The notes beneath the pieces were generated by a model. The model was not told the origin of the DNA. It was given only the letters and a program-made list of their open reading frames with translations, and searched no databases. The position numbers were made by a program, and so were the translations under genes. Below are positions 15,449 to 59,045 of a stretch of DNA of 64,000 nucleotides, one piece after another; the stretch's first letter is position 1; every line of letters begins with the position of its first letter. The DNA is from Oceaniferula marina (GTDB lineage Bacteria > Verrucomicrobiota > Verrucomicrobiia > Verrucomicrobiales > Akkermansiaceae). Location of the stretch: positions 62,001 through 126,000 of the forward strand of contig NZ_JACBAZ010000006.1 in assembly GCF_013391475.1 (NCBI RefSeq), given 5' to 3'.

Positions 15449-16147
15449 ATGGGGAAAAAGGAAGGAGGCTCAAGAGCGAAACAGAAGCTGAAAGCGGGGT
15501 GGTGGCGCTGGCTGAAGCTCGCGGTGTGGTTGTTTTTTTTACTGATGCTGTCCTGTTTTGCTTTTGTCTGGTTCGCCAATTACGAGGCGAGTCGTGCGGG
15601 GAAGGACGTGCTCTATGATTCGGTGGATGAGATTCCCCACCGGCGGGCGGGATTGGTGTTCGGTTGCTCCGAGAAGCTTGGTTCGAGGGACAATCTGTAT
15701 TTTAAGTATCGGATCGAAGCGGCTGCGGCCCTGTGGAAGGCTGGGAAAGTCGATTGCTTGATCGTGTCGGGCGATAACCGGGAGAAGTATTACAACGAGC
15801 CGGTGGCCATGCGTCGTGCGCTGGTCAGGGCAGGCGTTCCATTTCGTAAAATTGCCTGTGATTATGCCGGCTTGCGCACTTTGGATTCCGTGGTGCGAGC
15901 GAAAAAAATCTTTGGTTTGAATGAACTGACCTTGGTGAGTCAGAAGTTTCAGAATGAACGTGCGGCTTATATTGCCCAGGCACATGGGATGGATGTGATT
16001 GGTTACAATGCACAGGACGTCGAAGGCTATGCGGCCCGGAAAACGGAAGACCGCGAGGTGTTAGCCCGGGTCAAAATGTGGCTGGATGTGAACGTCACCG
16101 ATAAACAACCCCGACATTTGGGCGAGATGGTGCCATTGCCAGAATAG
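15449..16147 (+). CDS. SanA/YdcF-like (DUF218) membrane protein
   Basis: 232 residues preceded by a good Shine-Dalgarno sequence (AGGAG about 7 bases before the ATG). A basic N-terminus and one transmembrane helix (about residues 22-44) precede a DUF218 domain: RAGLVFGCSEKLGSRDNLYFKYRIEAAAALWKAGKVDCLIVSGDN, EPVAMRRALVRAGVP, DYAGLRTLDSVVRAKKIFG, LTLVSQKFQNERAAYIA. SanA in enterobacteria affects envelope permeability and vancomycin resistance at high temperature; its biochemical role is unclear. The gene ends just before a REP array that separates it from a convergent gene. Confidence 0.87.
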   Translation: MGKKEGGSRAKQKLKAGWWRWLKLAVWLFFLLMLSCFAFVWFANYEASRAGKDVLYDSVDEIPHRRAGLVFGCSEKLGSRDNLYFKYRIEAAAALWKAGKVDCLIVSGDNREKYYNEPVAMRRALVRAGVPFRKIACDYAGLRTLDSVVRAKKIFGLNELTLVSQKFQNERAAYIAQAHGMDVIGYNAQDVEGYAARKTEDREVLARVKMWLDVNVTDKQPRHLGEMVPLPE

Positions 16148-16155
16148 GGCTGGGT

Positions 16156-16720
16156 GGAGAGCGGGCCAAGCCTGTCGACCGATTAAAAATCGGTCCTACG
16201 GTGTGAAGTAGGGCAGGTTTTTCAACCTGCCGGCAACCATGGGGCCGGGCTGAGGGGGTGGAGAGCGGGCCAAGTCTGTCGACCGATTAGAAATCGGTCC
16301 TACGGGGTGAGGTAGGGCAGGTTTTTCAACCTGCCGGCAACCATGGGGCCGAGCTGAGGGGGTGGAGAGCGGGCCAAGTCTGTCGACCGATTAGAAATCG
16401 GTCCTACGGTGTGAAGTAGGGCAGGTTTTTCAACCTGCCGGCAACCATGGGGCAGGGCTGAGGAGGTGGAGAGCGGGCCAAGCCTGTCGACCGATTAAAA
16501 ATCGGTCCTACGGTGTGAAGTAGGGCAGGTTTTCCAACCTGCCGGCAACCATGGGGCAGGGCTGAGAGGGTGGATAGCGGGCCAAGCCTGTCGACCGATT
16601 AGAAATCGGTCCTACGGTGTGAAGTAGGGCAGGTTTTCCAACCTGCCGGCAACCATGGAGGCAGGGCTGAGGGGGTGGAGAGCTGGCCAAGTCTGTCGAC
16701 CGATTAGAAATCGGTCCTAC
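16156..16720. repeat. REP/BIME array A (six plus five GTAG palindromes, 104-105 bp period)
   Basis: Five full 104-105 bp units and a partial sixth fill the gap between convergent genes. Six copies of one 26-nt palindrome start at 16174, 16278, 16382, 16486, 16590 and 16695 (stem GACCGATT/AATCGGTC read on the minus strand). They alternate with five copies of a second palindrome in opposite orientation, starting at 16208, 16312, 16416, 16520 and 16624 (stem GGCAGGTT/AACCTGCC). Each palindrome carries GTAG at its 5' base in its own orientation, the hallmark of REP sequences mobilised by REP-associated tyrosine transposases; paired inverted REPs form BIMEs. No such transposase gene lies in the window. 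The array probably also acts as a bidirectional transcription barrier. Confidence 0.85.
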
Positions 16721-55144: not shown

Positions 55145-56008
55145 TTATTGTCCGTATTCGGTTGGCGGAATGTAGCCCAGTTCAGCGATAAAGGCATCCA
55201 TCGAATTCAGGGTGATTTCGAAGTGCTCCGGGCTGACATTGAAGTTGAAAAAGCTGTGGTTGCAGGCGTCGAAATCGATCAGGTCGCAGCGGTTGCGTTT
55301 GCGTTTCATCATTCGGACAAACTCCACAATCATATAGTGGGGCGCGACGGTGTCGACTTTGCCGTGAATCATCAGGGTGGGGGGAAGCTTGCGGCGAACG
55401 TTGTGGTAGGGGTTGAGTTTCGAACTGACCTTGGCGTTGGGGAACCGTTGGTGGTCGACATTTCGCCGGTTGGTATGGACAAAGGAACTGACTCCGATCA
55501 CCGCTTGCGGCCTCGGGTCGTAGCCATCGACGACCTCCAGTTTTTTTCGCATGGCGAGTGAAAGGGCCATATGGGCTCCTCCTGCGGACCCGGCCGCAAC
55601 GATGCGCTTGGGGTCAATTCCAAGTTCCTGATGGTTGTGGCGGAGCCAGAGCATCGCCATCTGGGCATCATCAAAGGCGTCGTCCGGGGTGGATTGGTGT
55701 ACTGCGCTGACCCGGTATTCCACCACAATGGCGACCATGCCGCGGCTGGCGAAGTGCATGGCATGGGGGGAGAACTGGGTGACCATACTGACATCCCAGA
55801 GGCCTCCGTGAAAAAACAAGATGGCAGGTTTCAGTTCTCCGGATTGGTCATCCTGTTGACTGTTGGGTTTACTGTCCTCCGGGTAAAAGCAGTAGGCGTG
55901 AAGATCAATACCGTCTTCGGACTGATAGATGTGGGGGTAGGCTCCGTTGAGCAACTCGAGTTTGCGTTCGGCGCTCAGCGGGGTGGTAGGTTGGGGAAGG
56001 ACGTTCAT
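55145..56008 (-). CDS. Alpha/beta hydrolase (HSL-type)
   Basis: 287 residues from the ATG at 56008 (MNVLPQPTTPLSAERKLELL). Oxyanion-hole motif ILFFHGGLWDVSM, nucleophile elbow RIVAAGSAGGAHMALSLAM (Ser in GSAGG), acid/base region PPTLMIHGKVDTVAPHYMIVEF (Asp) and DACNHSFFNF (His) make a full triad. There is no signal peptide, so it is probably cytoplasmic. Substrate unknown, perhaps a sugar ester. It is divergent from a secreted protein gene 78 bp away. Confidence 0.88.
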   Translation of the reverse strand: MNVLPQPTTPLSAERKLELLNGAYPHIYQSEDGIDLHAYCFYPEDSKPNSQQDDQSGELKPAILFFHGGLWDVSMVTQFSPHAMHFASRGMVAIVVEYRVSAVHQSTPDDAFDDAQMAMLWLRHNHQELGIDPKRIVAAGSAGGAHMALSLAMRKKLEVVDGYDPRPQAVIGVSSFVHTNRRNVDHQRFPNAKVSSKLNPYHNVRRKLPPTLMIHGKVDTVAPHYMIVEFVRMMKRKRNRCDLIDFDACNHSFFNFNVSPEHFEITLNSMDAFIAELGYIPPTEYGQ

Positions 56009-56086
56009 GCACAGATTGCCGGGTGGAGGACAAGCTTGTCTGAAAAAGTGTTTGCCCTCTGCTGGATTTATTGTCCAATGGAAATC

Positions 56087-56992
56087 ATGAAAAGCATGCA
56101 ATTATTTCTTTTGCTGTCGATGGTGCTGGTCTCATTTTCCGCCACACCGAGTGCTCGCGCCCAATCACCGACGGATCCCAAACTGACCAAAGCGCTTCAG
56201 GATGTCTATGCCTACTGGCGTGATGCGATGAAAAAAAAGAATCATGCAGCCTGGAAGCAGATCACCGCCAGTCATCGCCAGATGGCGATCAAAAACCGGA
56301 TTATGTCGGAGCGGGGTCGCTTTCCCCAGGATGTGTTTCGGGTGCCGGGGACGCCTCCTGCCGCCGCCAGTTTAAAGTTATTGAGGTCCCGTTATAAGGG
56401 GATGACGGCGAAACAGGTGTATTTTGGTAAGGTAGATTTTGGGGTGGGTGGAGCTCCTTCTGACAATTTGTTAGTGCTTAGTTTTGTTTATGAATCCGGC
56501 GGATGGAAATACGACAGTGCGGAGTTTGTCAATTTAGGTGGACTCAAGGATGTGAGAACCCAGTTGATGTCTGGCAATTTGAAGTATGTCGACGGAGAAG
56601 CTTTTTTACCTGACGGTAAGGTGCCAGTGAAGCCGATGGAAGTGGGGATGGCGAAGTACATTGCAAAAGTGTACACCTACTGCCCCGGCAGGGAAGTCAG
56701 GGCGAGCGTGAATAAGATCAGCAAGCACCGATTTCAGAATGACACGCGCTCCGAGGTGGTGATTGGAGGGGTGCGTGATGGGATGAATGAGATCCAGTTC
56801 TGGATCAAGGATCTGCCGGGATACAAAGGGGACGACCCTTTGACGGTGCGGGTGTATATTTTTCCCCAAGTAGAAGGACACAAGCCGGTCAAGGTGTTCC
56901 AGTATCAGACGATCAAGGGGGAGAAGCCCAAGCTGACGGCCAAAGAGATGTTTAATATCGGCCCGGATGATGTGAAGCGGATCGGGCGTTAG
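56087..56992 (+). CDS. Secreted protein of unknown function
   Basis: 301 residues from the ATG at 56087; the frame is open much further upstream (to 55571), but only across the antisense of the hydrolase. The N-terminus MKSMQLFLLLSMVLVSFSATPSARA is a signal peptide. A mostly helical part (LTKALQDVYAYWRDAMKKKNHAAWKQITASHRQMAIKNRI) is followed by a beta-rich half (VNKISKHRFQNDTRSEVVIGGVRDGMNEIQFWIKDLPGYKGDDPLTVRVYIFP). It is probably periplasmic. I recognise no family. It ends before a REP array. Confidence 0.75.
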   Translation: MKSMQLFLLLSMVLVSFSATPSARAQSPTDPKLTKALQDVYAYWRDAMKKKNHAAWKQITASHRQMAIKNRIMSERGRFPQDVFRVPGTPPAAASLKLLRSRYKGMTAKQVYFGKVDFGVGGAPSDNLLVLSFVYESGGWKYDSAEFVNLGGLKDVRTQLMSGNLKYVDGEAFLPDGKVPVKPMEVGMAKYIAKVYTYCPGREVRASVNKISKHRFQNDTRSEVVIGGVRDGMNEIQFWIKDLPGYKGDDPLTVRVYIFPQVEGHKPVKVFQYQTIKGEKPKLTAKEMFNIGPDDVKRIGR

Positions 56993-57033
56993 GAGAAGGA
57001 GGTTCTTTGTCTAAAAGGAGAGGATCCCAACGT

Positions 57034-57641
57034 GTGGGCACTGCGTTCCCAAGCTTGCCGACAGATTGAAAATCTGTCCTACTTTGGGTGCGTGAAGGTA
57101 GGACAGGATTGCATCCTGTCGGCCTCCCAAGGAATGATCAGGCTGTGGGCACTGCGTTCCCAAGTTTGCCGACAGATTGAAAATCCGTCCTACTTTGGGT
57201 GTGTGAAGGTAGGACAGGATTGCATCCTGTCGGCCTCCCAAGGAATGATCAGGCTGTGGGCACTGCGTTCCCAAGTTTGCCGACAGATTGAAAAATCCGT
57301 CCTACTTTGGGTGTGTGAAGGTAGGACAGGATTGGATCCTGTCGGCCTCCCAAGGAATGATCAGGCTGTGGGCACTGCGTTCCCAAGTTTGCCGACAGAT
57401 TGAAAAATCCGTCCTACTTTGGGTGTGTGAAGGTAGGACAGGATTGTATCCTGTCGGCCTCCCAAGGAATGATCAGGCTGTGGGCACTGCGTTCCCAAGT
57501 TTGCCGACAGATTGAAAAATCTGTCCTACTCTGGGTGTGTGAAGGTAGGACAGGATTGGATCCTGTCGGCCTCCGAAGGAATGATCAGGCTGTGAGCACT
57601 GTGTTCCCAAGTTTGCCGACAGATTGAAAATCTGTCCTACC
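57034..57641. repeat. REP/BIME array B (six plus five GTAG palindromes, 111-112 bp period)
   Basis: Five 111-112 bp units plus a partial sixth lie between convergent genes. Six 26-27-nt palindromes start at 57057, 57168, 57279, 57391, 57503 and 57615 (stem GACAGATT/AATCTGTC read on the minus strand, with single-base changes in copies 2-4). They alternate with five in the opposite orientation starting at 57098, 57209, 57321, 57432 and 57544 (stem GACAGGAT/ATCCTGTC). Each palindrome has GTAG at its 5' base, as in REP elements. Layout and orientation match array A at 16156, but stem sequences differ with compensating changes. Confidence 0.85.
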
Positions 57642-57653
57642 TTGCGTGACGGG

Positions 57654-59045
57654 TTAAAGCCCGCTGACGACTTCGTCGATGCTGGCTTTGGCGTCGCCAA
57701 AGAGCATGCGGGTGTTTTCTTTGAAGAATAGTGGGTTTTCAACTCCGGCGTAACCGGTGGCCATGCTGCGCTTAAGCACAATCACTTCTTTGGCATTCCA
57801 GACCTGAAGCACCGGCATGCCTGCGATCGGGCTGTCGGGCTCGTCTTCGGCTGATGGGTTGACGATATCGTTGGCCCCAATAACCATAACCACGTCGGTT
57901 TCGGGGAAGTCATCATTGATTTCTTCCATCTCAAGCACGATGTCGTAGGGAAGTTTGGCTTCTGCCAACAACACGTTCATGTGGCCGGGCATCCGTCCGG
58001 CAACCGGGTGGATGGCGAAGCGGACGTTGACACCTTGGTCGCGAAGCTTCTGGGTCATTGAAGCAACGGCTTGCTGGGCCTGGGCGACGGCCATGCCATA
58101 GCCGGGAACGATCACCAGCGATTTTGAGTTGTTGAGCAACTCGGAGGTGTCGGCCGCGGTGATGGCAACGGCTTCACCCTGTTCTTCGCCATCGGCGGAT
58201 TTGGTGGCTTTTTTCGTGCCAAAGCCGCCGAGGATCACGCTGAGGAACTTGCGGTTCATGGCTCGGCACATGATGATCGAGAGGATGGCACCGCTGGACC
58301 CGACCAGGGCTCCGGTCACAATCAGGAGGTCGTTGGAGAGCATGAAGCCGGTGGCGGCTGCAGCCCAGCCCGAGTAGCTGTTAAGCATGGAGATCACCAC
58401 GGGCATGTCGGCTCCGCCGATGGCGGCCACCATGTGAATGCCAAAGAGCAGCGCGAGCACCGTCATGATTGCCAGTGGCATCATGCCAGCATCAATGCTG
58501 CCGGCTTGGACAAACATCACTCCGAGTAAGATACAGGCGATCAGGATCAGGATGTTGAGCAGATGCCGGGCGGGGAGCAGGAGTGGTCGGCCACCGATCT
58601 TGCCGCTGAGCTTGCCAAAGGCAACGACCGATCCGGTAAACGTGACCGCGCCGATCAGGATGCCGAGGTAGATTTCGACGTCGTGGATGGCTTTTTCCGC
58701 ACCACTTAACGGATGGGAGGTATCCAGGAAGGTTCCGAATCCGACGAGCACGGCGGCCAGTCCGACAAAGCTGTGCAGCATGGCAACGAGTTCGGGCATG
58801 GCGGTCATTTTGACCCGGGCCGCGAGCAGGGCTCCGATCACCGCACCGATGACAATGACGATGGCGATAATGTGGAAGTTGCCGACCGAGGCGTTGAACA
58901 GGGTGGCTCCAACGGCGAGGATCATGCCGATGATGCCGTAGAAGTTTCCTCGCCGGGCTTTTTCCTGATCACTCAAGCCACCAAGGCTGAGGATGAACAG
59001 GATGCTGGCAACGATGTAACATGAGGTAGTGATTCCTTCAGACAT
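57654..59045 (-). CDS. pntB: NAD(P) transhydrogenase subunit beta
   Basis: 463 residues. The membrane domain has nine or so hydrophobic helices ([65 protein letters not shown]). The soluble dIII binds NADP(H): [72 protein letters not shown] and [21 protein letters not shown]. It works with PntA to make NADPH at the expense of the proton gradient. Start of the adjoining REP array is 13 bp beyond its stop. Confidence 0.96.

Follow-up and report, generated by a model that had tools for sequence, protein, structure and literature searches.

Array B occupies positions 57033-57648 of a window of 64,000 nucleotides from Oceaniferula marina (the whole stretch of DNA that was analysed). It is very probably a tandem, BIME-2-like cluster of a GTAG-family REPIN that a RAYT-like transposase most likely mobilises or once mobilised and that subsequently grew in place. 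The unit that is conserved and dispersed in this genome is a pair of REPs with outward-facing GTAG ends, a REPIN of about 96 bp with a conserved core, and not the pair whose GTAG ends face inward.

Structure of array B and its surroundings

TRF finds a 112-bp period with 5.5 copies over 57033-57648 (period 111-112 overall). The hairpin scan recovers six minus-strand and five plus-strand GTAG palindromes between 57060 and 57640, each with an 8-bp stem and a loop of 3-4 nt, which confirms the six plus five palindromes of the preliminary description. Because the outward dimer is the conserved unit, arrays A and B are each read as a half element followed by five whole ones. The features are as follows.

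57033..57648, no strand: array B, tandem REPIN cluster, half element plus five (TRF, hairpin scan, element definition)
57033..57082, no strand: leading half-REPIN of B, one minus-strand REP with about 27 of 50 core bases (boundary by eye)
57083..57097, no strand: first of five inter-element linkers of B, 15 bp (the earlier "spacer")
57098..57193, no strand: REPIN 1 of B, GTAG ends outward, 96 bp (hairpin scan, dimer analysis, fold)
57209..57305, no strand: REPIN 2 of B (hairpin scan, dimer analysis)
57321..57417, no strand: REPIN 3 of B (hairpin scan, dimer analysis)
57433..57529, no strand: REPIN 4 of B (hairpin scan, dimer analysis)
57545..57640, no strand: REPIN 5 of B, outer GTAG end 13 bp from the end of pntB
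55571..56992, plus strand: left neighbour of B, 473-aa ORF without a Pfam family, convergent with pntB (ORF list, Pfam search)
57654..59045, minus strand: right neighbour of B, pntB, NAD(P) transhydrogenase beta subunit (PF02233, 663.5 bits)
16152..16720, no strand: array A, half element plus five REPINs, period 104, linker 8 bp (TRF, hairpin scan)

The true start of the left-neighbour ORF may lie later, its main match beginning at residue 139-157 in several same-genus genomes. Both arrays sit between convergent ORFs, and array A, also 5.5 copies by TRF, has the same 6 + 5 palindromes in the same orientation order, so that the position and shared layout described earlier stand. In every one of the 22 copies that make up A and B, GTAG lies directly 5' of the 8-bp palindrome. 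Across the window there are 23 GTAG-hairpins, 22 of them within the two arrays; averaged over all 256 tetramers the number is 3.19, a mean that takes in GTAG itself and the tetramers overlapping it.

In three same-genus genomes (G009, G011 and G007), pntB (82-86% identity) is likewise convergent with the ortholog of B's left neighbour, and REPs of B's family are absent from this syntenic site in all three. The gap between the two genes is about 15-45 bp there, as estimated from tblastn ends, versus 661 bp here; the G007 and G011 assemblies are fragmented and 81% and 83% complete, respectively. Since the same neighbours occur without the array in three genomes of the genus, the simplest reading suggests insertion of array B in the present lineage rather than loss in the others. 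For array A there is no clean empty site because a search with its right neighbour yielded nothing clearly orthologous in the other genomes of the genus (best match 33%). Its left gene has matches in 11 other genus genomes, with no REP downstream in 10 of the 11 (the G005 stretch covers 99 bases only) and one REPIN in G003. This sole clear REPIN in G003 (L247, G003:C81) follows the ortholog of A's left gene (window 15449-16147) at a distance of about 125 nt, and a similar stretch in G010 is without a REPIN. The G003 REPIN may reflect a shared insertion site, a hotspot or coincidence.

A host regulatory structure, that is, a bidirectional transcript end or RNA-stability element held at a set copy number between convergent genes, is a very unlikely explanation of array B. 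The convergent placement of A and B and the stable hairpins (z below -4.6, folded as DNA) are what it would predict. However, three same-genus genomes have this gene pair without the array, copy number varies widely among clusters, and both an Rfam family and an intrinsic terminator were rejected as identities: the Rfam search (E up to 0.1) gave no match, and a consensus scan of 56900-57750 gave no hairpin followed by a T run.

The conserved unit

The REP sample comprised 149 hairpins from the window and 40 fetched stretches, of which 142 were kept and seven dropped for another start or stem length. Outward dimers, a plus REP followed by a minus REP within a start-to-start limit of 60-115 bp, number 51 and account for 102 of the 142 kept REPs. 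Their length is 93-104 bp in 50 of 51 and their cores are conserved, whereas the inward gaps, where GTAG ends face in, range from 8 to 85 bp and differ array by array. The earlier proposal that a pair of palindromes moves as a unit was therefore right in kind but had picked the wrong pair. Similarly, the GTCCTAC...GTGAAG stretch between two GTAG ends exists (8 bp in A, 15 bp in B), but it is the linker between elements and not a spacer within the conserved one.

Sequence conservation beyond the stem lies mainly on the inner side, with G, then G or A, then C, and a G at +10 in 134 of 142 REPs, and upstream of GTAG it fades past three bases. Folded as single-stranded DNA, the REPIN at 57098-57193, the one that was folded, forms a single long hairpin (-22.3 kcal/mol, z -4.64), so that this inverted doublet of constrained length folds as one. 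The inward pair at 57060-57120 forms two separate hairpins, better than its shuffles (DNA folding, -12.6 kcal/mol, z -4.67). The outward element of about 96 bp also occurs singly, both in the present genome and in three same-genus genomes. The idea that every half-REPIN ends at the dyad midpoint was abandoned, as the share of core bases varies (read by eye, 25/49 in A and 27/50 in B; about 29/47 in L067, about 33/55 in L064 and 14/58 in L076).

Copy number and probable growth of the clusters

About a dozen tandem REPIN clusters are found in the genome. Elements per cluster, read by eye and counted with the degenerate REPs from the covariance model, are listed below.

Array A: 5.5
Array B: 5.5
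L076: 5.5
L064: 2.5 and 2.5
L067: 4.5
L072: 5
L069: about 7-8 (N gap)
L082: 4
L095: 3-4
L097: 5
L099: at least 2 (contig end)
L096: four minus REPs, partners hardly recognisable

With 2.5 to about 7-8 elements per cluster, the matching copy number of A and B means little, and the earlier argument that identical copy number implies maintenance is not supported, L076 having 5.5 as well. Mean element identity is 95% within A and 97% within B versus 67% between them, and the two arrays therefore probably grew locally and separately.

Clusters at separate loci can nonetheless be alike: the best pair of elements reaches 96% between L072 and L082, which have 60-nt linkers, 98% between L095 and L097, and 90% between L064 and L069. 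In each case the linker, judged by eye, appears to be common too. Because separate clusters appear to have element and linker in common, copying between loci may have involved more than a single unit at a time. This bears on an unlikely but distinct alternative, in which the array moved as an array: the RAYT would excise a REPIN plus linker as a single-stranded circle, rolling-circle copying would follow, and tandem multimers would be inserted. The three sets of clusters with shared element and linker speak for such a transfer, as does L079, where the B unit recurs in a 1.5-unit form and the 15-nt linker is related in sequence. On the other hand, none of the dimers compared comes close to A (best 72%), B's nearest relatives are one single dimer and one 1.5-unit copy, and the same pattern would arise if units were duplicated locally and a few of them then copied. 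If array transfer were true, the arrays themselves, and not only single REPINs, would be mobile in this lineage.

Stem pairing and covariation

The stems of A and B had been said to differ with both arms changed together. This holds for the consensus stems but not for every copy, as three of the six minus stems of B carry a one-sided change (GACGGATT versus AATCTGTC) that leaves a G.T pair. Among 61 distinct REPs of the present genome, 480 of 488 stem cells pair (98.4%), a figure that exaggerates pairing, because the scan let through no hairpin with more than one mismatch and so favoured paired copies. Ten degenerate REPs, found by the covariance model only (E < 0.001, cluster loci), lie outside this sample. 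Two-sided changes occupy 51 cells at four of the eight stem pairs. The covariation score is 0.339 versus 0.106 after shuffling and was reached by 0 of 500 shuffles, as was the percentage paired, the shuffle controls ignoring relatedness among REPs. Neither the number of pairs with two-sided change (reached by 194 of 500 shuffles) nor the further pair types (494 of 500) rises above the shuffles. When 31 REPs of G007, eight of G013 and two of G003, all from a set of chosen stretches and locus L105, were compared, a fifth stem pair proved two-sided in G007, from G-C to A-T or C-G.

Maintenance of stem pairing is supported by these comparisons. Template-switch correction of palindromes would yield the same pattern without selection, and the pairing data do not separate the two. 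The preliminary description had placed hairpin pairing under selection; pairing is indeed kept beyond what any shuffle reached, but template-switch correction would fit equally well.

REPs across the genome and the genus

When the 5.07-Mb genome was searched by blastn with the B unit, 92 matches were returned (E up to 10), and a pattern search allowing up to one mismatch gave 40 matches versus two for the reversed control pattern. Of 40 stretches fetched, 39 around REP-like matches and one around a Y1_Tnp gene, the hairpin scan found GTAG palindromes in 32 and none in eight. The closest dispersed relatives of the B unit noted are at L071 (88%) and at C3:201136-201243 within L079 (87% over 108 bp).

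With a covariance model built from the 61 distinct REPs and matches counted at E up to 1, there are at least 150 matches in the present genome, 64 in G007 (49 at E 9e-7 or better), 29 in G013 (eight at E 1.2e-7 or better, the others weak) and one to four apiece in the remaining 11 genomes of the genus. At least some of the weak G013 matches come from a second GTAG family. Outward dimers are present in 14 of 16 chosen G007 stretches, in two length classes of 95-98 and 70-74 bp; tandem arrays are absent from these 16 stretches of a fragmented assembly. In G013, two of three stretches hold single outward dimers of 97 bp and the third a tandem array of the second family, and the G003 stretch holds one outward dimer of 71 bp. 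The other GTAG repeat family at L236 (G013:C9:177573-178241) forms a tandem array of four outward pairs with a period of about 176.

The family is thus high-copy, dispersed and mostly extragenic: by a crude ORF call, 38 REP clusters comprise 17 between convergent genes, 15 between co-oriented genes, two between divergent genes, two inside ORFs and two at contig edges. At L064 3512-4039 a reading frame passes through a REP. GTAG supplies a TAG stop codon to the right neighbour of array A (16717-16719), to the RAYT-like gene (L064 2600-2602) and at L071 (offset only).

The same dispersal bears on a CRISPR-like or satellite repeat unrelated to REPs, which is almost certainly not what array B is. 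It would account for the regular period and the palindromes and for nothing further. The CRISPR-like identity was rejected since linkers and cores are repeated and not unique, and the palindrome also occurs singly across the genome and flanks a transposase gene.

A RAYT-like transposase

Three Y1_Tnp genes were found in the genome, and one of them (G000:C2:332099-332740; L064 2600-3241) is flanked on each side by a five-REP cluster. Its product scores 40 bits against PF01797 (Y1_Tnp; cut-off 23) and 66.6 bits (E 2.2e-18) against NCBIfam REP_Tyr_transpos, below the cut-off of 80. By context and motifs the protein is classed as RAYT-like, outside the REP_Tyr_transpos equivalog. The motifs are MPNHVHLLV and KKYIKHNP, of which we take HVH and the tyrosine to be the HuH and catalytic residues. 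Comparison with the PDB gave weak matches only, including TnpArep 4er8 (E 0.11).

The REPs beside the gene (GACAGGTT, GACAGCTT) belong to the same family, with stems unlike those of A and B, and this enzyme is accordingly a candidate mover of the two arrays. Its closest relative, in G013 (54%), has an outward dimer on each side with stems of their own, three of four perfectly paired and one with a G.T pair. A 40% relative occurs in a Pirellulaceae MAG (a single locus from a contig scan). The link between RAYT presence and REP number across genomes is not clean: REPs abound in G007, yet a search of its assembly, 81% complete, turned up no close RAYT, and G011 combines a 39% relative of the RAYT with only two weak matches to the REP model. 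At L001 1203-1941, an IS200-like transposase gene (1405-1941) follows short tandem repeats with a repeated HPTPDTR-type frame.

Proposed origin of array B

In the preferred reading, that of a mobilised and locally grown REPIN cluster, the REPIN would be a non-autonomous element of about 96 bp in which two inverted REPs, their GTAG ends pointing outward, enclose a conserved core. The RAYT-like HuH transposase (L064 2600-3241) most likely moves, or once moved, REPINs as single-stranded hairpins. One REPIN, or a three-REP version, would have been inserted downstream of pntB, and slippage, or unequal recombination among direct copies, would then have lengthened the array on the spot. Pairing within the hairpins would persist because the transposase reads folded single strands, and array B, past the ends of two convergent genes, is probably near neutral in place.

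Comparison with known systems

Nearly every feature of array B is already present in the papers on REPINs and GTAG repeats, and the cluster is real but ordinary. In the available part of the work on Pseudomonas fluorescens SBW25, the REPIN is described as an inverted REP doublet that is the replicating unit and folds as one long hairpin (PMC3116915). The SBW25 elements and B are alike, as far as that account goes, in the inverted doublet unit, compensatory hairpin changes and clusters beside RAYT genes; the present genome differs in having its own GTAG stem sequences and somewhat longer clusters of up to about 7-8 elements (PMC3116915).

The GTAG REP families, as portrayed in excerpts of PMC3733652, share a GTAG tag, stems mostly of 6-9 bp and subfamilies with alternative complementary stems. 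Their dimers are reiterated in tandem with flanking DNA and lie between convergent or unidirectional genes, and the repeats supply TAG stop codons and flank RAYT genes. The same excerpts name O. terrae, of the Verrucomicrobia, as highly enriched in GTAG repeats. The present REPs have in common with these families the tag, alternative stems, tandem dimers, placement preference, TAG stops and the flanking of a RAYT-like gene (at L064), a likeness to GTAG-1 to GTAG-24 that concerns described features and not consensus sequences (PMC3733652).

Array B also resembles the BIME-2 of enterobacteria and REPtrons, within the descriptions drawn on, in that REP and inverted REP alternate in tandem (PMC2817692, PMC8266576); in B the spacing is regular. 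The perfect 8-bp stem with a 3-4 nt loop is unlike the bulged REP of E. coli and resembles the REP of S. maltophilia, an 8-bp perfect palindrome with a 3-nt loop, as given in the same partial sources (PMC2817692, PMC8266576).

What array B and its relatives add is a REPIN/RAYT-like system that is well resolved and includes about a dozen tandem clusters. The SBW25 paper, in the part available, leaves cluster formation to a second mechanism (PMC3116915). Clusters that appear to share element and linker at different loci amount to a natural experiment on the growth and spread of REPIN clusters.
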